Assembly (NCBI GenBank): GCA_900230115.1
Contig: LT907983.1
Location: 3,983,001 to 4,047,000 of the forward strand
Origin: Spirosomataceae bacterium TFI 002
GTDB taxonomy: Bacteria; Bacteroidota; Bacteroidia; Cytophagales; Spirosomataceae
Length of the DNA stretch: 64,000 nucleotides
Reading direction: 5' to 3'
The notes beneath the pieces are model-generated. The model was not told the origin of the DNA. It made no database searches and worked only from the letters and a program-made list of their open reading frames with translations. The position numbers were made by a program, and so were the translations under genes. Shown piece by piece: positions 46,335 to 64,000 of this stretch (the stretch's first letter is position 1; every line of letters begins with the position of its first letter).

Positions 46335-47390
46335 ATGATGAGAGTAAGTAATAGTGTATTGTATGTAGGACTTGTGATGTTTGGGGTATTAGGCTGTATA
46401 TCAAATGAAACAAACGAGTCAAAAGAAAATCCAGAAAGTCAAAACCTAGTCATCGAGATTAATAATGATGATATGGTTTTGATACCTAGCGGTGAATTTT
46501 TGATGGGCGGGAACAGTGAACAAGCTGATCCAGATGAGTTTCCAAAACATACTGTAAAGGTTGATAAGTTTTGGATGGATACACATGAGGTGAGTAACCT
46601 TGATTTTGAAAAATTTGTCAAAGAAACAAAGTACGTTACAGTTGCGGAAAGAGCGATCGACTGGGAAGAAATAAAAAGTCAGCTTCCTCCCGGAACTCCA
46701 AAACCAGCAGATAGTCTTTTGCTTCCCGGTTCTTTGGTTTTTATCCAAACTGCGGGTCCTGTCCCATTGGATAATGTTGGTCAATGGTGGCATTGGACTA
46801 TTGGAACAGATTGGCGACACCCCGAAGGCCCTGGTTCTGATATTTCGAATAGGATGAATCATCCCGTGGTTCATGTTTCTTGGGAAGATGCGAATGCCTA
46901 TGCCAAATGGGCGGGTAAACGATTACCAACAGAAGCAGAGTGGGAATGGGCTGCAAGAGGAGGGAAGAATGATCCTATTTATCCATGGGGAAATGATCCA
47001 GTTACAAATGCAAATAAAAAGGCCAATTTTTGGCAAGGTTATTTTCCTTATCAAAATACCAATTTAGATGGTTTTGCAGGCACAGCACCAATAAAGTCAT
47101 TCGACAAAAATGGGTACGGTTTATATGATATGGCTGGCAACGTATGGGAATGGTGTAGTGACTGGTATCGACACGACGCCTACGAAAGTAAAGGGCTAAA
47201 AGTTAATCCAAAAGGCCCCGAAAACTCCTTTGATCCACAAGAACCATACACACCTAAAAGGGTCATACGTGGAGGTTCGTTTTTATGTAATGATAGCTAT
47301 TGTAGTGGATACAGGGTTTCACGAAGAATGAAGTCTAGCGAAGACTCTGGAAGTTGTCATACTGGTTTTCGTTGTGTCAAAGACTCTTAG
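46335..47390 (+). CDS. Formylglycine-generating enzyme (sulfatase-modifying factor), lipoprotein form
   Basis: A 351-residue protein with a lipoprotein signal (VMFGVLGC, Cys21), so it acts outside the cytoplasm. It has the full FGE-sulfatase fold motifs: [77 protein letters not shown]. The C-terminal [16 protein letters not shown] and TGFRC match the catalytic region of true FGE: the copper-binding cysteines Cys318 and Cys323 have the C-x4-C spacing of the human enzyme. Many proteins with this fold lack them. True FGE oxidises the sulfatase active-site Cys to formylglycine using copper and oxygen. Placed beside nine Cys-type sulfatases, it is very likely their activator, working in the periplasm under aerobic conditions. 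Confidence 0.92.
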
Positions 47391-48717: not shown

Positions 48718-49590
48718 ATGAAAACATCAAAATATATAATAATAGCCCTTTTGTTGCTATTGGGAACTGTTGCAAACGCTCAGTTAAGTAATCTGAAAAC
48801 AGAGAACATTAAGATATACGGCAATTGTGGTATGTGCGAAAAAACCATTGAAAAAGCTGGTAATGTTAAAAATGAAGCAATGGTGGATTGGGATAAAAAA
48901 ACAAAAATGGCAAGTGTTCAATACGATTCAACAAAAACTAGCCAATCTGAAATATTAAAGAGGATTGCTTTGGCTGGATATGACAGTGATAAATTTTATG
49001 CTCCAATGGATACTTACGCTACTTTGCCAGGTTGTTGTCAATATGAAAGAGCTAAAAAAGAACTTTCCAATTCAGGTTCTGATGCAAATGAAAATCATGG
49101 TCAAATGGTAATGAAGAACACCGAAAGAGAGGGTACAACTGAAAAGAATCCTTTACAAGAAAATCCCATGAAAGAAGTATTTTCAAGTTACTTTGATTTA
49201 AAAGATGCCTTGGTTGCTACGGATCATAAAAAAGCCTCCATGGATTCGAAAAGCTTAGTTAAAGTGATGAGTCAAATCGAAATGAATAAACTTCCTATGG
49301 ACATTCACATGGTTTGGATGAAAGTGCATAAGGATATTCTTTCAGAAACAACCATTATTAGCAATAGCTCTGATATCGCGAATCAGCGAGAGCACTTTAT
49401 TTTGCTGTCAGATAAAATGTATGATTTGGTGAAAATTTCAAAATTAGAAGAAACGGTCTACTATCAGTTTTGCCCAATGGCAAACAAAGGAAAAGGAGCT
49501 AATTGGTTGAGCAAAGAGAATGAAGTTAAAAACCCTTACTACGGCTCCATGATGTTGAGTTGTGGTAAAACGGTAGAAACCATTAAATAG
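48718..49590 (+). CDS. Exported HMA-domain protein with DUF3347
   Basis: A 290-residue secreted protein with signal peptide ending TVANAQ. Residues about 28-100 form a heavy-metal-associated domain with GNCGMC (Cys37, Cys40), followed by GCCQYE. Residues about 140-290 fit DUF3347 (VFSSYFDLKDALVATDHKKA; YQFCPMANKGKGANWLS; NPYYGSMMLSCGKTV), a domain often attached to CusB-type or copper-binding periplasmic proteins. The 'CPMA...G..WLS....i.NPYYG..Ml.CG' end motif is well kept. It probably binds Cu+ in the periplasm and hands it to the oxidase or an efflux pump. Only 5 bp separate it from the multicopper oxidase gene. Confidence 0.82.
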   Translation: MKTSKYIIIALLLLLGTVANAQLSNLKTENIKIYGNCGMCEKTIEKAGNVKNEAMVDWDKKTKMASVQYDSTKTSQSEILKRIALAGYDSDKFYAPMDTYATLPGCCQYERAKKELSNSGSDANENHGQMVMKNTEREGTTEKNPLQENPMKEVFSSYFDLKDALVATDHKKASMDSKSLVKVMSQIEMNKLPMDIHMVWMKVHKDILSETTIISNSSDIANQREHFILLSDKMYDLVKISKLEETVYYQFCPMANKGKGANWLSKENEVKNPYYGSMMLSCGKTVETIK

Positions 49591-49595
49591 GCGAA

Positions 49596-51830
49596 ATGAA
49601 TTTATATAAAACAATACTCATAACTCTTTTTGGTGTTTTTACAATTCATATTGTATCTGGTCAAAAAGTAGTTCGATACGACTTAACAGTTACCGACTCC
49701 TTGGTTAATTTTTCGGGGAAGCAAAAAAGAGCAATTGCCGTAAATGGACAGATACCGATGCCAACATTGACCTTTACAGAGGGAGACACTGCTGAAATTG
49801 TTGTTCATAGTCAGCTCAAGGAAAGTACCTCCCTTCATTGGCATGGGTTGTATGTGCCCAATAAAGAAGATGGTGTACCTTATCTCACACAAATGCCCAT
49901 TGAACCCAATGAGACATTTACTTATCGTTTTCCAATTATTCAAAACGGAACGCATTGGTATCATAGCCACAGTGGATTGCAAGAACAAATAGGAATGTAC
50001 GGCTCATTGGTTTTAAAGAAAAGAGAAGCCGATCCAACATTCAGAAAGGGAATAGATGATCTACCAGAAGTACCTATTATTCTTAGTGAATGGACTGATT
50101 TAAAACCAGAAAACGTGCATAGAATGTTGCACAATGCCAATGACTGGTTTGCGATTAAGAAAGGTACAGTTCAGAGTTATTCTGAAGCTATAAGTGCTGG
50201 GAGTTTTAAAACGAAAATTACCAATGAATGGAAACGCATGCTTGCTATGGATGTGAGCGATGTTTATTATGAGAAGTTTCTAATCAACGGAAAAAATGAA
50301 AGCCAGTTATCCCAATTTAAAGGTGGAGACAAAGTTCGCTTGCGAATATCTAATGGTGGTGCTTCTTCCTATTTCTGGTTGACCTATGCTGGCGGAAAGA
50401 TGACCGTAGTGGCAAATGATGGTAACGACGTAAAACCTGTGATGGTTGATAGGTTAATCATTGGAGTTTCGGAAACTTACGATGTAGTCATAACTCTCCC
50501 AGAGGATAATTCCTCATTTGAATTCTTGGCAACTCCCGAAGATCGTACAAAATCTGCTTCTATTTATTTTGGTAATGGCCCTATTCAGCTCAAAAGTAGA
50601 ATGCCAAAACTCAAATATTTTGATGGCATGAAAATGATGAACGACATGATGAATATGGACGGCTCTATGGATGACATGGGAATGGGTATGTCGCTCCAAA
50701 AAATGGATATGAACACTGTAATGTATCCTGAAATTTCAGGCAGTAAAAGCGGTAAAAAAGAAAAGCAAATGGAAATGGATCATTCAAATATGAACCATAC
50801 AATGCCAATGAAAAAAGATTTAGTCACTTTGAATTATTCAATGCTCAAAGCTCCACAGCCAACTACCTTACCCAAAGATGCACCGGTTCGTGAACTGTTT
50901 TTTGAGCTTTCGGGGAACATGAATCGTTATGTGTGGAGTATGGACAATAAAGTACTTTCCGAAGTAGATAAGGTCCTTATTAAGAAAGGTGAAAATGTTA
51001 GAATAGTGCTATATAATGGCTCCATGATGCGTCACCCCATGCACCTACATGGTCACGATTTTAGAGTCCTCAACGGGCAAGGTGAATATGCTCCACTGAA
51101 AAATGTATTGGACATTATGCCCATGGAAACAGACACCATAGAGTTCAATGCTAATTTAGAAGGTGATTGGTTTTTTCATTGTCATATTTTGTATCACATG
51201 ATGGCGGGTATGAACAGAGTGATTTCGTATCAAAATCAAGCTCCAAATCCTTATTTGCCGGACAAGGCGTGGGCATATAAACAACTCCAGAAAGAAAGTA
51301 ATCAATTTCACTTTATGGCTGAAAATGACTTCGCTACCAACGGAAATGATGGTATGCTAATGTTTCAAAATTCGCGGTGGAGTATAGGAACAGAATGGCG
51401 TTTAGGGTATCATGATCTACATGGATACGAAACCGAAACCCATATTGGAAGGTATATTGGAAAAATGCAATGGTTCATGCCCTTTATTGGTTTTGACTGG
51501 AGATATCGAGAACAGAATGGCGTTTTTGAAAATAACCTTTTTGGACAAACAAGTACTAAAGACAACAGATCCGTTGTGAGTTTAGGTGCCGAATATACCT
51601 TGCCCTTACTAGTTAAATTGCAAGGAGAGGTTTTTACAGACGGTTACCTACGTTTTCAATTAATGAGAGAAGATATTCCTATTACACCAAGATTAAGGTG
51701 GGCTTTCATGATCAATACTGACAAGGAGTTCATGACAGGTTTAAAATATATTGTCGCTAAAAATGTTGCTATTTCCACCCACTACGATAGTGATATGGGA
51801 TTGGGAGTTGGGCTCACATTAAATTATTAG
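49596..51830 (+). CDS. Multicopper oxidase (copper-resistance type) with CopB-like C-terminal extension
   Basis: A 744-residue secreted protein (signal peptide ending IVSGQ). Residues about 25-545 form the three-cupredoxin oxidase with all copper sites: HWHG (81-84), HWYHSH (120-125), HPMHLHGHD (480-488) and HCHILYHMMAGM (528-539, with the axial Met). A Met-rich insert at about 344-405 (MMNDMMNMDGSMDDMGMGM) is like those of CueO and PcoA, which bind Cu+ and widen its oxidation to Cu2+. Residues about 560-744 are additional and strand-rich (WSIGTEWRLGYHDLHGYETETHIG, end DSDMGLGVGLTLNY), resembling the CopB/PcoB outer-membrane barrel and ending in an aromatic residue. This would merge CopA and CopB functions in one chain. 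Confidence 0.88.
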   Translation: MNLYKTILITLFGVFTIHIVSGQKVVRYDLTVTDSLVNFSGKQKRAIAVNGQIPMPTLTFTEGDTAEIVVHSQLKESTSLHWHGLYVPNKEDGVPYLTQMPIEPNETFTYRFPIIQNGTHWYHSHSGLQEQIGMYGSLVLKKREADPTFRKGIDDLPEVPIILSEWTDLKPENVHRMLHNANDWFAIKKGTVQSYSEAISAGSFKTKITNEWKRMLAMDVSDVYYEKFLINGKNESQLSQFKGGDKVRLRISNGGASSYFWLTYAGGKMTVVANDGNDVKPVMVDRLIIGVSETYDVVITLPEDNSSFEFLATPEDRTKSASIYFGNGPIQLKSRMPKLKYFDGMKMMNDMMNMDGSMDDMGMGMSLQKMDMNTVMYPEISGSKSGKKEKQMEMDHSNMNHTMPMKKDLVTLNYSMLKAPQPTTLPKDAPVRELFFELSGNMNRYVWSMDNKVLSEVDKVLIKKGENVRIVLYNGSMMRHPMHLHGHDFRVLNGQGEYAPLKNVLDIMPMETDTIEFNANLEGDWFFHCHILYHMMAGMNRVISYQNQAPNPYLPDKAWAYKQLQKESNQFHFMAENDFATNGNDGMLMFQNSRWSIGTEWRLGYHDLHGYETETHIGRYIGKMQWFMPFIGFDWRYREQNGVFENNLFGQTSTKDNRSVVSLGAEYTLPLLVKLQGEVFTDGYLRFQLMREDIPITPRLRWAFMINTDKEFMTGLKYIVAKNVAISTHYDSDMGLGVGLTLNY

Positions 51831-51858
51831 TATAGCACAGTTTAAAGATGAAAAACTC

Positions 51859-54345
51859 ATGAAACATACCTATAAAATATCAGGAATGACTTGTAATGGT
51901 TGTCGCAATCATGTGACCGCCGTATTGTCCAAAGTCGATGGAGTAAAAGAAGCAATGGTTGATCTGGAAAAAGCGGAGGCAAGCATCGTAATGGATAAAC
52001 ACATTACTATCCAAACATTCCAAAAAGCACTGGAAAATGATGGTGATAAATACAAAATATACAATCTTGAGGACGACATTCCTGAAGCCACTAAAAAAGA
52101 AATAAAACCTCAAGGAGTTAGCGGATTATTTTATTGTCCCATGCATTGCGAAGGTGAAAAAACCTATGATCAACCTGGCGACTGTCCAGTTTGTGGAATG
52201 GATTTGGTGGAAGAGCATAAAGTCCAAAATGTAGGAGGAGAATACACCTGTCCAATGCATCCAGAGGTTCGTCAAAAAGGCCCAGGAAGTTGTCCAAAAT
52301 GCGGAATGGACTTGGTGCCAGTTGTCCCAACATCTCAAGAGGACACCACTTATCAAACCTTACTTAAGAAGTTCAAAATAGCTGTAGCATTTACCTTGCC
52401 TATTTTTATCATGGTAATGGTCGAAATGATTCCCAATAACCCGATTAACAAATATTTGGATCGAGACTTTACAAATTGGTTGCAGTTGATTTTGTCTCTA
52501 CCGGTTGTTTTTTATGCTTGTTGGATGTTTTTTCAAAAAGCCTGGAATTCTTTTAAAACATTAAACCTGAATATGTTTAGCCTCATCGGGTTAGGGGCGG
52601 GGGCAGCATTTATTTTTAGTGTCGTTGCTTTATTATTTCCTGATATTTTTCCGGCTCAATTTAAGCATGAAGACGGAAGTGTATTTCTATACTTTGAAGC
52701 TGTTACAGTAATTTTAACCTTGGTATTATTAGGCCAATTGCTTGAAGCTAGAGCTCATAGCCAAACAAGTGGTGCTATTAAAGAATTACTTAAGCTATCA
52801 CCCACAGAAGCAATCTTAGTTGAAGGAAACGAAGAGCGAATCATTTCTATTCACGATATTAAAACTGGAGACCTATTGAGGGTGAAACCCGGTGATAAAA
52901 TTCCTGTAGATGGCAGCATAAAAGAAGGAAATAGTAGTATCGACGAATCAATGATTACAGGCGAACCAATCCCAGTAAGTAAGAAGGAAAATGACAAAGT
53001 AAATTCCGGAACTATTAATGGTAACCGCTCTTTTGTAATGGTAGCCGAAAAGGTAGGAGATGAAACATTGCTTTCTCAAATTATTCAAATGGTAAACGAT
53101 GCAAGTCGCTCAAAAGCTCCGATTCAAAAATTGGCTGATACCATTTCGAAATATTTTGTTCCAATAGTTATTCTTACAGCTATCATCACTTTTGTAGTAT
53201 GGAAGTTTTTTGGTCCAGAACCCTCAATGGTTTATGCTTTTGTAAATGCACTCGCTGTATTAATTATTGCTTGTCCATGTGCTTTGGGTTTAGCAACACC
53301 TATGTCTGTTATGGTAGGGGTGGGTAAGGGTGCTCAAAATGGGGTATTGATAAAAAATGCCGAAGCATTGGAAAATATGAATAAAGTAGATGTATTGATT
53401 ACTGATAAAACAGGAACAATTACTGAAGGTAAACCGTCACTAGAAAAAATTGTGTCATTTGGCGAAATAACTGAAATTAGACTTTTAGCTAAATCTGCAA
53501 GCCTTAACTCACAAAGTGAACATCCCTTGGCAGAAGCCATTGTAAAAAAAGCTAAACAAAGTGATTTGACAATTGAGAAATTGATTGACTTTGAAGCCGT
53601 TTCGGGTAAAGGTGTTATTGGCACAATTGAGAACCAATCAATTGCAATCGGTAATGATAAACTTATGGAAAAACTTTCAATAACTATCTTACCCGAGCAG
53701 AGCAAAGAAGTTGAAATTTATCAGAAACAAGGTAAGACTGTTTCTTACATTGCTGTAGAGAACAACTTAGAAGGGTTTTTAATTATCTCTGATGCGATAA
53801 AGGGAACGAGCAAAAAAGCTATTCAAGAACTTGTAAAAGATGGGGTTATGGTTTACATGCTTACAGGGGATAATCATAACACTGCTTCGGCAGTAGCCAA
53901 GGAATTGGGTTTAACACACTTCAAAGCAGAGTGTCTTCCTCAAGACAAATTACAAGAAATCAAAAAGCTTCAATCTGAAGGAAAGGTTGTGGCCATGGCT
54001 GGTGACGGTATTAATGATGCACCAGCTCTAGCACAAGCAGATATAGGAATTGCTATGGGTACCGGAACTGATGTTGCCATTGAAAGTGCTCAAATCACCT
54101 TGCTTAAAGGTGATTTGCAAGGAATAGTGAAGGCTAAACATTTAAGTGAGAATGTAATGCGTAACATCAAGCAAAATCTCTTTTTTGCTTTTGCATATAA
54201 TGTCCTAGGTATACCAATTGCCGCTGGTATTTTATATCCATTTTTTGGGATATTATTATCGCCAATGATCGCAGCCGCTGCAATGAGTTTTAGTTCGGTT
54301 TCCGTAATTGCAAATTCACTAAGATTGAGGCGATTGAAATTATAA
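51859..54345 (+). CDS. Copper-translocating P-type ATPase (P1B-1)
   Basis: An 828-residue inner-membrane pump that exports Cu+ (or Ag+) using ATP. The N-terminus has an HMA domain (MTCNGC, Cys12 and Cys15), then two short heavy-metal-binding fingers: YCPMHCEG...CPVCGMDL (92-116) and YTCPMHPEV...CPKCGMDLVP (129-154). The core has ITGEP in the actuator, ACPCALGLATP as the intramembrane metal site, DKTGTITEG with the phosphorylated Asp, SEHPLAEAI in the nucleotide domain and GDGINDAPALAQADIGIAMG in the hinge. These are the P1B-1 set. It ends the copper operon, 28 bp after the oxidase gene. The two extra fingers occur in a subset of Bacteroidota and proteobacterial copper and silver pumps. Confidence 0.95.
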   Translation: MKHTYKISGMTCNGCRNHVTAVLSKVDGVKEAMVDLEKAEASIVMDKHITIQTFQKALENDGDKYKIYNLEDDIPEATKKEIKPQGVSGLFYCPMHCEGEKTYDQPGDCPVCGMDLVEEHKVQNVGGEYTCPMHPEVRQKGPGSCPKCGMDLVPVVPTSQEDTTYQTLLKKFKIAVAFTLPIFIMVMVEMIPNNPINKYLDRDFTNWLQLILSLPVVFYACWMFFQKAWNSFKTLNLNMFSLIGLGAGAAFIFSVVALLFPDIFPAQFKHEDGSVFLYFEAVTVILTLVLLGQLLEARAHSQTSGAIKELLKLSPTEAILVEGNEERIISIHDIKTGDLLRVKPGDKIPVDGSIKEGNSSIDESMITGEPIPVSKKENDKVNSGTINGNRSFVMVAEKVGDETLLSQIIQMVNDASRSKAPIQKLADTISKYFVPIVILTAIITFVVWKFFGPEPSMVYAFVNALAVLIIACPCALGLATPMSVMVGVGKGAQNGVLIKNAEALENMNKVDVLITDKTGTITEGKPSLEKIVSFGEITEIRLLAKSASLNSQSEHPLAEAIVKKAKQSDLTIEKLIDFEAVSGKGVIGTIENQSIAIGNDKLMEKLSITILPEQSKEVEIYQKQGKTVSYIAVENNLEGFLIISDAIKGTSKKAIQELVKDGVMVYMLTGDNHNTASAVAKELGLTHFKAECLPQDKLQEIKKLQSEGKVVAMAGDGINDAPALAQADIGIAMGTGTDVAIESAQITLLKGDLQGIVKAKHLSENVMRNIKQNLFFAFAYNVLGIPIAAGILYPFFGILLSPMIAAAAMSFSSVSVIANSLRLRRLKL

Positions 54346-54698: not shown

Positions 54699-55322
54699 CT
54701 ACTTTTCAAATTCATTGTAAACCCTAAGAAGATCAGTTACCTTATTGACCTGTAGTTTTTTGTAAATATTCTTTCGGTGAGTTTGTATTGTAAAAGGGCT
54801 GAGACCTAGTGTACTCGCAATGTTATTTGATGAGTTGCCATCCTTAATGAGCCTTATGATCTCCATTTCCCTCATTGTCAAGCTCACATTGTTGTAAGAA
54901 AAACCATTATTGTTCTTTGGTTCATGGCCTGGGTCAAAATACCTGCCTCCTTGATATACAATTTTAATGGCACCGATTAAAATTTCTTTAGGAGATGACT
55001 TTAGAACAAAGCCTTTGGCTCCGTTTTTTTCAGCGTAGTCCAAATAAATCTGCTCGTTACTATTAGAGAGTAAAAGAATTTTAATTTCCGGATTACTGGT
55101 GTGTAACCCTTTAAGGAAATCCCAAATATCCTTACCCATTCCATTTGCATCTAGTAGGATAATTTCGGAGCGATACTTCTTATTAAGTGACTCCACCTTG
55201 TTCAAATTCAAAACATTTATTTCAAACCGTTGATAGTCTGAATTGAAAAGACTTTTCAGTGCTTCAAGGTAAAGCACCTGTTTACTTATAATAAGTAAAC
55301 TTATACGTGTTTCAGCGTTCAT
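54699..55322 (-). CDS. LuxR/NarL-type response regulator with atypical receiver
   Basis: A 207-residue cytoplasmic protein. Residues 1-125 form a receiver-like domain with EIILLDANG (Asp58 at the phosphorylation position), LLLSNS and FVLKSS (the conserved Lys). The acidic pair normally found after the first strand is missing: the sequence reads SLLIISKQ where DD or DE is expected. This pair binds Mg2+, so phosphorylation may be weak or absent. Residues about 140-207 are a LuxR helix-turn-helix (LTMREMEIIRLIKDGNSSNNIA; FTIQTHRKNIYKKLQV). No partner kinase gene is adjacent. It is divergent from the LytTR gene and could control it or the large adhesin. Confidence 0.88.
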   Translation of the reverse strand: MNAETRISLLIISKQVLYLEALKSLFNSDYQRFEINVLNLNKVESLNKKYRSEIILLDANGMGKDIWDFLKGLHTSNPEIKILLLSNSNEQIYLDYAEKNGAKGFVLKSSPKEILIGAIKIVYQGGRYFDPGHEPKNNNGFSYNNVSLTMREMEIIRLIKDGNSSNNIASTLGLSPFTIQTHRKNIYKKLQVNKVTDLLRVYNEFEK

Positions 55323-55626: not shown

Positions 55627-55941
55627 ATGGACTACTATTACCTCAAGAGAAACGACTCTATACAATTGATCGATATTGTCTTTTTGGAGGCATTAGAAAA
55701 CTACACATTATTCTACCTCTCAAATGGCTCCAAGATAATTTCATCTTCCACCCTAAAGAGACACCAAGAAAAACTTCCTGAGAACTCATTCGTAAGAATC
55801 AATAGGTCGATGATGATTAATACAAGGCATATTAGAAAAATATTCTGCAAAAATGATACCAACTTCATCAGAATGAAAAACGGAAGAGACCTAAAAGTTT
55901 CTCGACGGCGACGAGATACTTTAGACTTAATCGCCTCTTAA
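55627..55941 (+). CDS. Stand-alone LytTR DNA-binding regulator
   Basis: A 104-residue protein made up of a LytTR domain only. It has IQLIDIVFLEALENYTLFYLSNG, then ISSSTLKRHQEKLPENSFVRINRSMMINTRHI, in which the F.RINRS.miN. block is the family hallmark, and a basic end (LKVSRRRRDTL) that would contact DNA. There is no receiver, transmembrane or sensor part, so it must be controlled by its own level or by a partner protein. It lies 52 bp upstream of the giant secreted protein gene on the same strand, which suggests that it regulates that gene or is co-transcribed with it. Confidence 0.88.
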   Translation: MDYYYLKRNDSIQLIDIVFLEALENYTLFYLSNGSKIISSSTLKRHQEKLPENSFVRINRSMMINTRHIRKIFCKNDTNFIRMKNGRDLKVSRRRRDTLDLIAS

Positions 55942-55993
55942 AACAAAACATCCCAAAGATCAAATTATTACCCACTCCCAAAAAAGTTTAAAA

Positions 55994-58900
55994 ATGGAAA
56001 CAAATTCTACTTCATCATTTAGGCATCATGCCAAAAAGTTCTTAGGACGGGCTTTATGGCTCTTCAGTTTTTTAATAATATTTAGTTCAGCCAATGCACA
56101 AACCAAACTTATAGGATGGGATGTCGCAACTTTAACCAGTTTTGGTGCGAGTCCTTTTTCACCTAGTGTGGTCAATTCAAATCTTGAAAATGTTGTAGGA
56201 CTCACAAGAGGAGTTGGCCTATCTAGTGGAGCTACATCAGTTACTGGTGGTTGGGGAGCAACAAGTTGGGAAACAACTTATGCTGCTGGTTTGGCAGATG
56301 AAAGTGTTATTTATTTTGGTTTCAAGCCAAAACCTGGATTTGCTATGTCTTTACAAAACATAGATCCTTTTTCTTATAAAAGATCTGGAACTGGTCCTGC
56401 TGAAGGTATAATAGATTTTACTGTTAATGGAGGGACTAGCTATTCTGGTGTGTCACAGGGGCCTTTTTACTTTGGTAACTCTTCAGCTGGAGGTGCAGGA
56501 GTAACGCCAACAAGGATTTTATCATATGATTCAGAACTTCAGCAAACTTCAAATGCTGTTGGTTTTAGAATTGTGCCTTACAACGCAACAGATCCTGCCG
56601 GAGAATTTTTTATATACAATATTATAACTTCTGGTGATGACTTTACTATCAATGGTAGCATACTAGGTTCAGAAACGTTGGCACTTTCAGGATTTGAAAG
56701 TATAGTTGGTTTTGCGAGTAATGTTGAAACTTTTGTTTTAAAAGGAGATGGACTTACTGCATCTAATGTGGTACTAACCGCTCCCACTGGATATGAAGTT
56801 TCAGGTGACAACAGTGTTTTTAATAGTAGTTTAAGTATAACTCCTTCTTCAGGGGTTATCAATTCAACAGTATATGTAAGGTTAAGTGATGCTGCAACTG
56901 TTGGTTCACATACTGGTGATTTAACAATAATTGGAGGCGGGTTTACCGCTTTAGCAGGTTTAAAAGTAGCATTAAGCGGTGTAGTGAAGCCATATCCGGT
57001 AGTCAATGTTACTCAAAGTACAAGTTTCCTAACTATACAAGCAGCAATTGATGATGCCGCTACTGTAAATGGAGATGTAATCACTGTAGCTGCCGGTACT
57101 TATGCCGAGAATGTTATAGTAAATAAAGAATTAACTATCAATGGACCCAATGCCATGATATCACCAAATGGTGGAATTCGTGCTACGGAGGCAATTGTAG
57201 TTCCCGCAACTTCAGGAGCTGATGCAGTTTTTACCATTCAGTCTAGTGACGTAACAATTGCTGGTTTCTTAATTGATGGTGATAACGCTGGCTTAACATC
57301 TGGTGTGATTGGAACAAATGGAGCAGATATAGATGCATATGAAGGCGTTATTTATAGTGATCCACTAAATGCTCTAGTGGTGGACAGAATTAAAGTTGAA
57401 AATAATATTATACAAAACTTCCAATATTTTGGAGTTGATTTTTCAGGATGGTATAATTATAATAATCCTGCTACATCAGGACATGTAGTCAACAATAACC
57501 TTATCAAAGATCTTGGAACATACAATTCTGGAAATGGTTATGATAAATGGGGTGGGGGTGTATTAATACATACAAATCAATATACTTCTGTTACCAATAA
57601 TGTAATGACAAACGTGAGATTAGGAATTCAAACTGGTCGATATAGTAAAGTCAATCCTGGAGGACCTGAATCGCAAATCATTAGTAATAATTCTATTCAA
57701 GCTCGAAGAATAGGTATTTTTCACAATTTTCAGTACGGAAATGCCTCACCTCTAACATTTTCTAGTAACACAATAACAGGTCTTAATAATGTTAATGAAA
57801 CTGCGGTTCGAGGGATATTATTAAGTTATTCATCCATAAGTTCATCAGTCATTGATAATGTAATCGACATGAGCGGCGTTTCTCTTCCTACATCAGGAAT
57901 TGAGGTTTGGGATGTAGGTAGTTCCACACCATCTATAATTACTGGAGGCACTATCTCAAATGTAAAATATGGTATCTTCTTAAACAACTATGATGGCTAT
58001 AGCACAAATGCTCCTACTGGTGCTCATGCTACAATTTCTGGAGTTACAATTAATCCAAATTTTGATGGAATAGGAATTCGATTGCTTGACAACCCTGCAG
58101 CTACATCTCATGCAGCAGTACAAGCAACTTTAGGAGCTGGAATAATCGTGAATGGCGGAACAGATGGCCTCTCTATTGAAAACGCGTCTTCACAAGTTGT
58201 ATCACCAACAGGCGACATTACATTTAATACGCAAACTGGTGATTATGTCAAGCTTATTGCCAACACCAATGACGTGGATATGTCGGCAGCTTCATTTGAT
58301 GGTAAAACAGGAACAACTGCTACACTTGCAGAAAACTTTGCTATTGAAGATAAAATTACACACGAAATGGACAATGCTTCATTGGGAAGTGTAAGTGTAA
58401 AAGGTACTGAATGGTTTGTAACAACTAACTCTGGAAGTATCCAAAGAGCAATAGAGTTGTCATCCAACGGCGACAAAATAAATGTCAATGATGGTACTTA
58501 CAATGAGGATATCTCTGTTACCAAAGAGGTAAGTCTCAAAAGTGCTACTGGCAGTGCAAATACAACGATTTCTGGTGTTGCGGCTACAAGGGCAATTAAC
58601 ATTGCATCAGATAACGTAACAGTAGAAGGCTTTACGGTATCAAATAATGGTAGACAATACGGAATTTACGCTAATAACAAGGGTGGTTTAAATATTAAAG
58701 ATAACCATGTTACCGATGTAGGTGTAAACACGCTAGTATCCACAGCAGTATACGGAATAGTTGTAGAAGCTACCGCCAACGCAGTTGATGATATCAATAT
58801 AACTGGTAATACTGTTGATGATATCAATGGAGGAAATAAAGGAAGTATTGGAGCTATAGCAGTTGGGTTCTCCACAGGAGATTATGATTTAACTAACCTC

Positions 58901-61900
58901 ACTATCAATAATAATACAATTACTGATATTGATGCTGCCACTGCAGCTTGGCCAGATGGAAGAGGAGCTTATGGTATTCTCTTAAACTTAGGATCAAGTG
59001 TAGGTGGAACTGGTAGAGTTGTGAACCCAGTCATTACCAATAATAATATCACAGACCTTGAAGGCTTATGGGCAACGGGTATTGGACTAGAAGGAGATAC
59101 ACCAGGAGCAATGGTTACTGGAAACTCAATAAGTGACTTGACAGATCACAAGGGGCCTTCTGTTCCAGATGCATCTGGAGTTAAAATAGAGTCCAATGAT
59201 GGTGCTGCAACAGTGCTTATTAATAACAACGACTTCTTTAATATTGGAAGCGGTACAACAAACGATGGTTTTGGAGTTAATAACTTTACAACCACATTAG
59301 TTAACGCAGATAATAACTATTGGGGTGCTGCAGATGGTCCATCTGGCACAGGTATAGGAACTGGAGTAAAAGCGTCTGATAATGTTTCATTCTGTCCTTA
59401 CCTTGATGGAGTAGTTGGAAGTGGAGCACCCATTGGTTGTCCAGTAAAAAATGTGGAAACTGGCAAGAGCTATGTAACAATCCAAGCAGCGATTAACGAT
59501 GTTTTAACTGTAAATGGAAACACAATTGAAGTTGCAAAAGGAACTTATACTGAAAACGTTGTCGTAAACAAGAGTTTAACTATCAATGGACCTAATGCCG
59601 GTATTTCTCCAAATACAGGGAGTAGAACGGATGAAGCAATTGTTGTTCCAGCAACTGTAGGATCTGATGCGATATTTACAATTGAAGCTAGTGACGTAAC
59701 CATTAATGGATTTAAACTTGACGGCGATAATACAAATTTGACTTCTGGATGGTTGGGTACCAACGGTGCGGATATTGATACTTATGATGGTGTTGTTTAT
59801 TATGATGGAGCTAATTCGCTTGTTGTTAATAGGCTAATTTTTGAAAATAACATTGTTCAAAACATTCAATACTTTGGAGTCGATCTATTTGGATGGGGTA
59901 ATTATAATAATCCTTCCACCACAGGACATAGAATCAGTGACAACTTATTTAAAGACTTAGGTACTTATGATGCATTAAATGGATATGATAAATGGGGAGG
60001 AGGAGTACTGCTTTATAATGATAATTATGCCAATGTGGTTAATAATACCATGGATAATGTTCGAAATGGAATTCAAACAGGTAATTTCCACGATGCTAAC
60101 CCAGGAGCTCCTATTTATCAACTAATTGAAAATAATACCATTAAAACTAGACGTTTAGGTATTTTCTTTAATCTCCATACAGGTGCTTCTGTAGCACCAA
60201 TGACCGTTTCAAGTAATACAATTACAGCGATTGCTAATGCCAATGAATTGAAATGGAATGGAATGTTATTGTCCAGTTTGAGTAACGCTGCTGGAACAAT
60301 CGAGGGCAATGTGATTGATGGAGCAGGTACGGATCCAGCAACTCTTACAGTAAATGGAATTGAGGTTTGGAATGTGAAGAGCGATGCTCCAGTGGTTATA
60401 TCTGGAGGGACAATTGACAATGTTAATACAGGTATTTTCCTCAATAATTTTGATGGCTATAGTTCCGATGCAACAAATGGTGCACATGCAACAATTTCGG
60501 GTATTACAATAACACCTCATGCTACTGGAACTGGGATTCGATTGCTTGACAACCCTGCAGCTACATCTCATGCAGCAGTACAAGCAACTTTAGGAGTTGG
60601 AATAATCGTGAATGGCGGAACAGACGGCCTCTCTATTGAAAACGCGTCTTCACAAGTTGTATCACCAACAGGCGACATTACATTTAATACGCAAACTGGT
60701 GATTATGTCAAGCTTATTGCCAACACTAATGACGTGGATATGTCGGCAGCTTCATTTGATGGTAAAACAGGAACAACTGCTACACTTGCAGAAAACTTTG
60801 CTATTGAAGATAAAATTACACACGAAATGGACAATGCTTCATTGGGAAGTGTAAGTGTAAAAGGCACTGAATGGTTTGTAACAACTAACTCTGGAAGTAT
60901 CCAAAGAGCAATAGAGTTGTCATCCAATGGCGACAAAATAAATGTTAATGATGGTACTTACAATGAGGATATCTCTGTTACCAAAGAGGTAAGTCTAAAA
61001 AGTGCTACTGGAAGTGCAAATACAACGATTTCTGGTGTTGCGGCTACAAGGGCAATTAACATTGCATCAGATAACGTAACAGTAGAAGGGTTTACGGTAT
61101 CAAATAATGGTAGACAATACGGAATTTACGCTAATAACAAGGGTGGTTTAAATATTAAAGATAACCATGTTACCGATGTAGGTGTAAACACGCTAGTATC
61201 CACAGCAGTATACGGAATAGTTGTAGAAGCTACCGCCAACGCAGTTGATGATATCAATATAACTGGTAATACTGTTGATGATATCAATGGAGGAAATAAA
61301 GGAAGTATTGGAGCTATAGCAGTTGGGTTCTCCACAGGAGATTATGATTTAACTAACCTCACTATCAATAATAATACAATTACTGATATTGATGCTGCCA
61401 CTGCAACTTGGCCAGATGGAAGAGGAGCTTATGGTATTCTCTTAAACTTAGGATCAAGTGTAGGAGGAACTGGTAGAGTTGTGAACCCAGTCATTACCAA
61501 TAATAATATCACAGACCTTGAAGGCTTATGGGCAACGGGTATTGGACTAGAAGGAGACACACCAGGAGCAATAGTTACTGGAAACTCAATAAGTGACTTA
61601 ACAGACCACAAGGGACCTTCTGTTCCAGATGCATCTGGAGTTAAAATAGAGTCCAATGATGGTGCTGCAACAGTGCTTATTAATAACAACGACTTCTTTA
61701 ATATTGGAAGCGGTACAACAAACGATGGTTTTGGAGTTAATAACTTTACAACCACATTAGTTAACGCAGATAATAACTATTGGGGTGCTGCAGATGGTCC
61801 ATCTGGAGAAGGTGTTGGTGGCGGAGTGAAAGTAACTGCTAATGTAACATTTTGTCCGTTTTATGACGACGTAGTCCTTTCAGGAGCTGTCGTAGGATGT

Positions 61901-64000
61901 AGAGTTAAGAATGTTGACACTGGTGAATCCTTTACTTCTATTCAGGCTGCAATTGATGATGTAACCACAATTGATGGACATACGCTTACGGTTAGTCCAG
62001 GAACGTATGATGAAGGAGAGCTGGTTGTGAACAAATCGTTGAAACTACATGGTGCCAATGTCGGTAAAGCAGGTAATGATATCACACGTGATGCTGAATC
62101 GGTAATCATGAATAGTCCCGTGTATATCAGTGCGAGTAATGTAGAATTAGATGGATTCAAAGTTTCTGGAACTAAGGTAAGTGGTGCCTACCAAGGCCAG
62201 ATAGGCAACAGCTGGGATTCAGGAGCAGCACCATCTGCTAATGCGGTCATAAAAAATAATTTTTTCGAGAATGTCGAAAACCATGGTATCTTGGTTAACG
62301 GAGCAGATGGTTGGTCTATTGAGGGAAACCTCTTTATTAGCATTGGAAATGGTGTAGGAGGGAATTTGGGAACTTCAAGCTTTTCGGCCATATATAGTCC
62401 TTCCTCTAATGATTTGAATATCAAAGGCAACGTATTTTATACTGTAGATTATAACGGGATTCTTCTTGAAGCTGCTCAAAAAGCCATCGTAACTGAAAAT
62501 AGATTCTTGAACATTCATAAATCGGGACTTCAGGTATCAGGAGTATCTGGTGATGTGAGCGTCACAGCTAATAACTTTACAGATGCAAACCTTTCGGATG
62601 AAGTTGACAGGGGTGCTATTAGAATTTACGGACAAGATTTTGATGGTGTCGTCAATTTCTCAGGAAACGAATTTACTGGTGGAATAGCTGCATTTGCAGT
62701 GAAGTCAGGTCAGAACATTACAGGCAAAGACATCCAGTTCAACAATAACTCGATAACTGGATTGTCGAGTGCAACGGTTATTCGTCATATGGGTACAGGG
62801 GAATTAAGTGCTACTTGTAACTGGTTTGGTACAACAGATCCCGAGTTAATCAAAGCACAAATTAGTGGCGACGTTACCTTTTTATCATTTATTACAAATG
62901 GAACCGATGATGATTTAAATACAGTTGGCTTCCAGCCAGTAGCTGGAAGCTGTGATGGCTATGGTCCTGTGAGATTATATTCGGACAATACATTTGCAAC
63001 ACTTGTAAATTCATTCTTTAGTATTCAAGATGCGGTAGATGCGGCTTCATCTGGAAATGGGATAGAAGTGGTCGCAGGAACGTACAATGAGTCGATTAAT
63101 GTTAATAAGTCCTTAACTATTAAAGGGCCAAATGCTGATATCTCGCCAAATACTGGAACACGTATTGCTGAGGCCGTTCTAGTGAATTTATCATCTGGAA
63201 GAGGGTTTACAATATCTAATGGAAATACAGATGTAACAATCAGTGGATTTAAATTTGATGGTGGGTCACCAATACATGACGGTAATGATACAGGAAACCC
63301 TATGACATCGAATGTTACATTCAGTAAAAATTTGGTTGTAAATGCTCATGCAATATATGCAGGGACAAATACTTCTTGGGCTGATCTTATAATAATAGAC
63401 AATAAATTCGAAGACATTAATGCTACAGCAACATCAAGTGCAATGCAGGTTTCGCATACGTCAACTACAAGCATAACAGATAACACTTTTACTAATGTTA
63501 ACTATGCTGCTATGGTAATTGATGCTACCCCTACAGTTAATATTTCAGGAAATACAATAGATGGAACAGGGTATCAAGGGATTCAGATAGCTGGTGCCGT
63601 TGGCGATGTTACTGTAGAAAATAATAAAATAAGCAATGCCAATAGTGTTGCACAGGCAGTAGATAGAGGAGCAATTCGTTTGTATGGTTCGGGCTTCATT
63701 GGAGCAGTTACAATCTCTAATAACGAAATAACTGGTGGATACAACGGAATAGCTGTTAAGGATGGTGAAAATATTACAGGTAAAAATATCAGTATTACTG
63801 AAAACAGCATTACTGGTCTAGCTGGCGGTAAAGCAATATACCATGGAGGTACAGGCGAATTAAGTTCAACCTGTAACTGGTTTGGTACAACAGATCCTGA
63901 GTTAATCAAAGCTCAAATTAGTGGCGAGGTTACCTTTTTATCTTTTATTACAAATGGAACCGATGATGATTTAAATACAGTTGGATTCCAGCCGGTAGTT
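55994..64000 (+). CDS. Giant secreted right-handed parallel beta-helix repeat protein, 5' part
   Basis: The frame is open from the ATG at 55994 to the window end, giving 2669 codons with no stop. Signal peptide: LWLFSFLIIFSSANAQ. Residues about 35-340 hold beta-rich domains, including a choice-of-anchor-like segment (SITPSSGVINSTVYVRLSD). The rest is long parallel beta-helix sequence with recurring N-N-x-I and G-I-x-L turns. Modules begin with an 'IQAAIDD...GTY.ENV.VNK.LTINGPNA' block, starting near 57041, 59486, 61946 and 63029. A related IQRAI block appears inside the first two. The closest use is as a surface adhesin or polysaccharide-binding protein, probably exported by the type IX system, but its C-terminus is outside the window. 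Two regions are near-exact repeats. Confidence 0.88.
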   Translation, partial: METNSTSSFRHHAKKFLGRALWLFSFLIIFSSANAQTKLIGWDVATLTSFGASPFSPSVVNSNLENVVGLTRGVGLSSGATSVTGGWGATSWETTYAAGLADESVIYFGFKPKPGFAMSLQNIDPFSYKRSGTGPAEGIIDFTVNGGTSYSGVSQGPFYFGNSSAGGAGVTPTRILSYDSELQQTSNAVGFRIVPYNATDPAGEFFIYNIITSGDDFTINGSILGSETLALSGFESIVGFASNVETFVLKGDGLTASNVVLTAPTGYEVSGDNSVFNSSLSITPSSGVINSTVYVRLSDAATVGSHTGDLTIIGGGFTALAGLKVALSGVVKPYPVVNVTQSTSFLTIQAAIDDAATVNGDVITVAAGTYAENVIVNKELTINGPNAMISPNGGIRATEAIVVPATSGADAVFTIQSSDVTIAGFLIDGDNAGLTSGVIGTNGADIDAYEGVIYSDPLNALVVDRIKVENNIIQNFQYFGVDFSGWYNYNNPATSGHVVNNNLIKDLGTYNSGNGYDKWGGGVLIHTNQYTSVTNNVMTNVRLGIQTGRYSKVNPGGPESQIISNNSIQARRIGIFHNFQYGNASPLTFSSNTITGLNNVNETAVRGILLSYSSISSSVIDNVIDMSGVSLPTSGIEVWDVGSSTPSIITGGTISNVKYGIFLNNYDGYSTNAPTGAHATISGVTINPNFDGIGIRLLDNPAATSHAAVQATLGAGIIVNGGTDGLSIENASSQVVSPTGDITFNTQTGDYVKLIANTNDVDMSAASFDGKTGTTATLAENFAIEDKITHEMDNASLGSVSVKGTEWFVTTNSGSIQRAIELSSNGDKINVNDGTYNEDISVTKEVSLKSATGSANTTISGVAATRAINIASDNVTVEGFTVSNNGRQYGIYANNKGGLNIKDNHVTDVGVNTLVSTAVYGIVVEATANAVDDINITGNTVDDINGGNKGSIGAIAVGFSTGDYDLTNLTINNNTITDIDAATAAWPDGRGAYGILLNLGSSVGGTGRVVNPVITNNNITDLEGLWATGIGLEGDTPGAMVTGNSISDLTDHKGPSVPDASGVKIESNDGAATVLINNNDFFNIGSGTTNDGFGVNNFTTTLVNADNNYWGAADGPSGTGIGTGVKASDNVSFCPYLDGVVGSGAPIGCPVKNVETGKSYVTIQAAINDVLTVNGNTIEVAKGTYTENVVVNKSLTINGPNAGISPNTGSRTDEAIVVPATVGSDAIFTIEASDVTINGFKLDGDNTNLTSGWLGTNGADIDTYDGVVYYDGANSLVVNRLIFENNIVQNIQYFGVDLFGWGNYNNPSTTGHRISDNLFKDLGTYDALNGYDKWGGGVLLYNDNYANVVNNTMDNVRNGIQTGNFHDANPGAPIYQLIENNTIKTRRLGIFFNLHTGASVAPMTVSSNTITAIANANELKWNGMLLSSLSNAAGTIEGNVIDGAGTDPATLTVNGIEVWNVKSDAPVVISGGTIDNVNTGIFLNNFDGYSSDATNGAHATISGITITPHATGTGIRLLDNPAATSHAAVQATLGVGIIVNGGTDGLSIENASSQVVSPTGDITFNTQTGDYVKLIANTNDVDMSAASFDGKTGTTATLAENFAIEDKITHEMDNASLGSVSVKGTEWFVTTNSGSIQRAIELSSNGDKINVNDGTYNEDISVTKEVSLKSATGSANTTISGVAATRAINIASDNVTVEGFTVSNNGRQYGIYANNKGGLNIKDNHVTDVGVNTLVSTAVYGIVVEATANAVDDINITGNTVDDINGGNKGSIGAIAVGFSTGDYDLTNLTINNNTITDIDAATATWPDGRGAYGILLNLGSSVGGTGRVVNPVITNNNITDLEGLWATGIGLEGDTPGAIVTGNSISDLTDHKGPSVPDASGVKIESNDGAATVLINNNDFFNIGSGTTNDGFGVNNFTTTLVNADNNYWGAADGPSGEGVGGGVKVTANVTFCPFYDDVVLSGAVVGCRVKNVDTGESFTSIQAAIDDVTTIDGHTLTVSPGTYDEGELVVNKSLKLHGANVGKAGNDITRDAESVIMNSPVYISASNVELDGFKVSGTKVSGAYQGQIGNSWDSGAAPSANAVIKNNFFENVENHGILVNGADGWSIEGNLFISIGNGVGGNLGTSSFSAIYSPSSNDLNIKGNVFYTVDYNGILLEAAQKAIVTENRFLNIHKSGLQVSGVSGDVSVTANNFTDANLSDEVDRGAIRIYGQDFDGVVNFSGNEFTGGIAAFAVKSGQNITGKDIQFNNNSITGLSSATVIRHMGTGELSATCNWFGTTDPELIKAQISGDVTFLSFITNGTDDDLNTVGFQPVAGSCDGYGPVRLYSDNTFATLVNSFFSIQDAVDAASSGNGIEVVAGTYNESINVNKSLTIKGPNADISPNTGTRIAEAVLVNLSSGRGFTISNGNTDVTISGFKFDGGSPIHDGNDTGNPMTSNVTFSKNLVVNAHAIYAGTNTSWADLIIIDNKFEDINATATSSAMQVSHTSTTSITDNTFTNVNYAAMVIDATPTVNISGNTIDGTGYQGIQIAGAVGDVTVENNKISNANSVAQAVDRGAIRLYGSGFIGAVTISNNEITGGYNGIAVKDGENITGKNISITENSITGLAGGKAIYHGGTGELSSTCNWFGTTDPELIKAQISGEVTFLSFITNGTDDDLNTVGFQPVV
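58076..59346 (+). repeat. 1.27-kb near-identical internal repeat, copy 1
   Basis: This segment of the giant gene is repeated 2460 bp (820 codons) downstream. By eye there are about 16 single-base differences in 1271 bp (near 98.7% identity), of which about 13 are silent and 3 change an amino acid (Ala/Val, Ala/Thr, Met/Ile). Sequence on both sides is also related but much more diverged. Confidence 0.93.
60536..61806 (+). repeat. 1.27-kb near-identical internal repeat, copy 2
   Basis: Second copy of the repeat at 58076-59346, in the same reading frame. The edges are sharp: identity drops right after the NYWGAADGPSG block at the 3' end and before the IRLLDNPAATSH block at the 5' end. Confidence 0.93.
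62792..62944 (+). repeat. Module-end repeat (CNWFGTTDPELIKAQISG), copy 1
   Basis: A 153-bp segment coding for a Cys-containing module end, repeated 1056 bp (352 codons) downstream with about a dozen base changes. It probably closes each beta-helix module. Confidence 0.8.
63848..64000 (+). repeat. Module-end repeat, copy 2 (runs to window edge)
   Basis: In-frame second copy of the 62792-62944 segment. It is cut by the window end, so its true 3' limit is not visible. Confidence 0.8.

Follow-up and report, generated by a model that had tools for sequence, protein, structure and literature searches.

The closest published precedent for the gene described here is the group of surface-protein genes Giant1-5 of Apilactobacillus kunkeei and Fructobacillus, which diversify mostly by short intragenic recombination (PMC12863079, 2026). 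These genes of fructophilic lactic acid bacteria also exchange sequence between genera, with identities of up to 99.6% in the beta-solenoid domains of distant species, and dS varies extremely along their length (PMC12863079). The giant gene that we studied shares with them a very large, secreted type of repeat protein, intragenic recombination and inter-genus exchange. It differs in host and build: Giant1-5 belong to Firmicutes and combine alpha-helical repeats and beta-solenoid domains with DUF5776 ends, whereas our gene comes from Bacteroidota and encodes a predicted chain of right-handed beta-helices that ends in GCX_COOH; a Pfam scan of its product detected no DUF5776 C-terminal repeats.

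Surface antigen conversion offers a second comparison, and there the donors are for the most part separate from the expressed gene, as silent cassettes or as members of multigene families. Conversion of this kind in bacteria has been reviewed (PMC4534519) and resembles the case of our gene in that a tract is copied over a paralogous tract and has sharp edges. The giant gene differs from these systems in that donor and recipient share one reading frame, and we found no further copy of the tract and no donor elsewhere in the host genome. A literature search for a direct match to this case returned nothing relevant. The giant gene is a further case of a process already described for other giant surface proteins, but its fold and its set of domains are different. 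It provides a well-polarised case from Cytophagales in which a single giant beta-helix gene shows both intragenic copying and replacement of modules between genera, and extends the pattern of giant proteins in lactic acid bacteria to Bacteroidota and beta-helix chains. It also carries a warning, as trees and domain annotations of such proteins blend several histories.

Architecture and predicted role of the giant protein

The window analysed here is a stretch of 64,000 nt from Spirosomataceae bacterium TFI 002 (LT907983.1, GCA_900230115.1, positions 3983001-4047000), the genome of which is a single 5.46-Mb contig with 100% completeness. The giant gene occupies 55994-66082 of the forward strand in window numbering (genome 4038994-4049082). 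Its in-window part is 55994-64000; the end lies outside the window and the frame was completed from neighbouring DNA. The encoded protein of 3362 aa consists, in order, of a signal-peptide-like start, an N-terminal region of ~345 aa, seven predicted right-handed beta-helices, a C-terminal region and GCX_COOH. The helix starts carry an IQ-A-I motif and are found at aa 348, 816, 1163, 1636, 1983, 2344 and 2696. Pfam scanning matched Beta_helix (PF13229) in nine stretches (3e-33; 115.1 bits against a curated cut-off of 25.9) and NosD (PF05048) in five. The giant protein thus has the right-handed beta-helix repeat profile of PF13229 and PF05048 proteins, but differs from them in its seven chained helices and its additional N- and C-terminal regions. 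Identity as a NosD copper maturation protein was considered and rejected, with TIGR04247 scoring 135.5 bits against a cut-off of 300.

At the C-terminus, GCX_COOH (NF045639) matches residues 3310-3362 of 3362 with 48.9 bits against a cut-off of 26. We found no known type IX sorting domain at this end, and the NCBIfam scan of the protein matched NosD and GCX_COOH only. The host genome does encode the SprA translocon of type IX secretion (TIGR04189, about 2058 bits). Because GCX_COOH matches and the SprA translocon are both present, export of the giant protein to the cell surface is plausible. Across the host genome (G000) we counted 45 GCX_COOH matches, several of which lie in frames of 2000-3849 aa, so giant proteins of the secreted type appear to be numerous in this genome.

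A structure model of low confidence (mean pLDDT 59.5) shows mostly strands, up to about aa 745 and then over about aa 806-1077. The best Foldseek matches of this weak model were proteins with right-handed beta-helix folds, namely the adhesin PfbA and alginate lyases of family PL6; PL6 members of comparable size have two helices in tandem. With TM-scores of 0.2-0.3 by query length and 11-15% identity, these matches remain distant from the giant protein, and we claim no enzyme activity for it. Its probable role is that of a surface or secreted structural or binding protein, perhaps carbohydrate-binding, in which interchangeable helices diversify by recombination.

A 1271-bp tract in two modules

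Modules A and B of the giant gene are paralogous (815 and 820 aa) and align end to end. Each contains one copy of a 1271-bp core tract on the forward strand: copy A at 58076-59346 (aa 695-1118), the probable donor, and copy B at 60536-61806 (aa 1515-1938), the probable recipient. Going by helix limits taken from the weak model (mean pLDDT 59.5), the tract would comprise the last coils of helix 1, the linker and the whole of helix 2, and the tract edges would coincide with inter-helix junctions. The initial annotation had described two copies 2460 bp apart with about 16 differences, about 13 of them silent, and alignment reproduced these figures exactly. The offset is 2460 bp, 16 of the 1271 bases differ (98.7% identical), and 13 of these differences are synonymous and three non-synonymous (A/V, A/T and M/I).

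In a codon alignment of modules A and B, dS is 0.044 and dN 0.003 within the tract. The left flank (346 codons) has a dS of 1.88, a dN of 0.32 and 62% amino acid identity between modules; on the module A side it corresponds to helix 1 (57026-58075, forward strand), which is saturated at silent sites against the left half of module B. Silent saturation likewise characterises the right flank (47 codons), where dN is 0.36 and amino acid identity 60%. Divergence along the module is therefore far from uniform, as had been claimed. The transitions are sharp on both sides, at 58075/58076 and 59346/59347 in copy A numbering. When the 454 differences over 2457 aligned bases were permuted, the score of the low-difference segment reached a maximum of 63 (n = 1000), compared to the observed 935.

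Changes within the tract are strongly skewed towards silent sites, with 3 of 965 non-synonymous and 13 of 304 synonymous sites differing (Fisher p = 2e-6), which bears out the earlier suggestion of selection on the protein. The 16 differences are spread in a manner compatible with an even distribution (KS p = 0.81), and an identical run of 315 bp within the tract is not unusual (p = 0.17). A single event is therefore sufficient to explain the tract.

A homologue in another genus and the probable direction of copying

We identified a single close homologue (n = 1) in the genome collection, L007, from a short-read Cytophagales MAG. By matching coordinates it is the same record as G169, which belongs to a different genus of the same family as the host genome. 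The homologue has 3449 aa and seven helix starts, and its contents differ from those of the giant gene. Repeats of this kind had been expected to permit fast change in length, but our comparison does not demonstrate it, with seven helix starts in both genes and 3362 compared to 3449 aa.

In a four-way codon alignment, L007 has orthologues of module B in its left half (93-99% nt up to about 60241) and of core A (84-100% nt). The left half of module A has no orthology to the corresponding part of L007, with 42-73% nt identity per 30-codon window. The stretch at 59347-60535 (forward strand), which joins the right end of module A to helix 3, the left half of module B, is orthologous to L007 with a dS of 0.22 overall and about 0.12 up to 60241, and is not homogenised with module A. 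The second half of L007 module B matches core A at 84-90% over its first 90 codons, then at 64%, and is unrelated thereafter.

Because L007 has an orthologous left half of module B followed by a different helix, module B of the host lineage probably once had another, older sequence at this place, which a copy of core A has replaced. The direction from A to B follows if L007 is taken to retain the older arrangement of module B. Both cores are equally distant from copy A of L007 (dS 0.291 and 0.305), and polarisation with this copy as outgroup places 10 of the differences in B and four in A, with two ambiguous. The match of copy B to L007 copy A starts before the A/B edge is reached, at about 60521, some five codons further upstream. 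Since L007-like sequence extends this far upstream in core B, a few sites hint that the left half of module A was itself exchanged later.

These data strongly suggest that the tract was made by intragenic gene conversion between mispaired modules, which we regard as very probable. Modules A and B would mispair within or between sister chromosomes, and RecA-dependent homologous recombination would overwrite the matching part of module B with the tract of module A, at a time after the giant gene and the L007 homologue had begun separate histories. Most amino acid changes in the tract have since been removed by purifying selection. The giant gene has also recombined repeatedly with homologues from the other genus, at times with replacement of one complete helix.

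The gene recombines between genera, and an incoming allele that carries the same core could do so out of register, so the core of module B might have been imported from another strain or species and not from module A. We consider such an import unlikely, as the two cores differ by a dS of 0.044 compared to 0.29-0.31 to the only other known core, and we found no closer donor among 222 family genomes. A donor of the same species would be indistinguishable from an intragenic event, and both cores may have been brought in from one unseen donor. Viral contigs searched for relatives of the core or of helix 7 contained none.

If the entire module of 820 aa had recently been duplicated in tandem, with rapid divergence of the flanks afterwards, this would give the regular 2460-bp offset and the end-to-end alignment of the modules. 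Such a duplication is highly improbable, however, given that flank dS is saturated compared to 0.044 in the tract, that the left half of module B, unlike that of module A, has a 93-99% orthologue in the other genus, and that the sequence after copy B is only 60% nt identical to that after copy A and hence no recent copy. Since the orthologue of the left half of module B is not module A-like, the module halves would have diverged before the tract was copied. The initial annotation had already preferred conversion to duplication of the whole module, and the homologous yet silent-saturated flanks, together with the L007 arrangement, agree with that preference.

An error of assembly or polishing is marginally less credible still. 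Two copies this similar at a distance of 1.2 kb are a well-known source of such errors, but the genome is a single contig with 100% completeness, the 16 scattered differences show a strong silent bias unlike assembly errors, each copy has unique flanks, and the flanks between the copies have L007 orthologues. Strong constraint at the nucleotide level, keeping the copies alike without copying, can practically be dismissed: the core amino acids are strongly conserved (dN 0.003 between copies and 0.019 between genera), yet between genera this stretch differs at 73 of its 303 silent sites, which are hence free to change. Of the two processes proposed initially, gene conversion or selective homogenisation, conversion is thus supported; homogenisation without copying is rejected, as silent sites are also alike between the copies, yet dS is 0.29 between species.

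Mosaic structure, recurrence and genomic surroundings

We observed that the divergence from L007 varies widely along the giant gene. The vertical background between the host and this genome is given by rpoB (dS 1.6, 78.9% nt), and the genes flanking the giant gene are 64-76% identical. Tracts of the giant gene have a dS of 0.05-0.2. They include an N-terminal tract common with the other genus (55892-57118, forward strand; 95% nt, dS 0.10), with the first 345 codons of the giant gene also at dS 0.10, and helix 3 at about 0.1. At 64025-65104 (window numbering, past the window end; L003 11025-12104), there are 3 differences in 1080 bp (99.7%), and the neighbours of this stretch have dS values of 1.8 and 0.5. 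The 1080 bp correspond to one complete helix, from FGP/VKLYTDNS to FQP/VPNTC, with edges near the repeated inter-helix FQPV junction. Over the C-terminal 200 residues, dS ranges from 1 to saturation, which equals the vertical background. Judged from these alignments, the giant gene is a mosaic between genera, a feature newly reported here. A chimeric L007 MAG contig could mimic the 99.7% tract but hardly the tracts of intermediate divergence.

The two homologues also contain unmatched parts. In L007 (6776-17125), two helices at aa about 415-640 and 2041-2340 are without counterpart in the giant gene, and aa 2041-2160 of the giant gene have little or no counterpart in L007. This points to helix gain, loss or replacement.

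Homogenisation appears to have occurred more than once. Modules A and B of L007 share a 183-bp stretch at the start of the core, in the linker, with 2 differences. Because all 10 informative sites at the linker group the copies by genome and 0 by position, the L007 linker tract would represent homogenisation independent of the host event. Within the giant gene, an older and partly homogenised junction of 352-aa modules lies at 62792-63059 (forward strand; partner 63848-64115), with 82% identity over 268 bp and 93% over the first 151 bp, in saturated surroundings. In G021, two 352-aa modules are 82% nt identical with a dS of mostly 0.3-0.5, an older and weaker case. Among 10 more distant beta-helix proteins of the family, we found no homogenised tracts, and internal nucleotide repeats occurred only in the two of genus g28 (68-73%); recent homogenisation is therefore not general.

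More tentatively, the giant gene might be a chain of exchangeable beta-helix cassettes in which junction DNA (FQPV and linker motifs) seeds recombination, a possibility that we hold to be doubtful. If true, whole helices would be copied within the gene and traded between genera as functional units, resulting in environmental Bacteroidota with a cassette-type diversification that has no silent donor loci.

Upstream of the giant gene, a gene for a LuxR-type response regulator (54699-55322, reverse strand) has the same place in L007, where its low identity (59% nt) reflects the vertical background, and a gene for a 104-aa protein with a LytTR DNA-binding domain (55627-55941, forward strand) directly precedes the giant gene, as it does in L007. 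The LytTR gene is diverged except in its final 17 codons, within which the high-identity block begins (55892-55941; RRRRDTLDLIAS end). Elsewhere in the window, 7975-46041 forms a polysaccharide-utilisation type region with sulfatases, GH92, GH88, a heparinase-like protein, a SusC/SusD pair and a hybrid two-component regulator, and is followed by an FGE-sulfatase-domain gene (46335-47390). A metal-handling group at 48718-54345 contains DUF3347, a multicopper oxidase and a heavy-metal P-type ATPase; among the flank genes, the ATPase alone matches G169 over a long stretch (76% nt).
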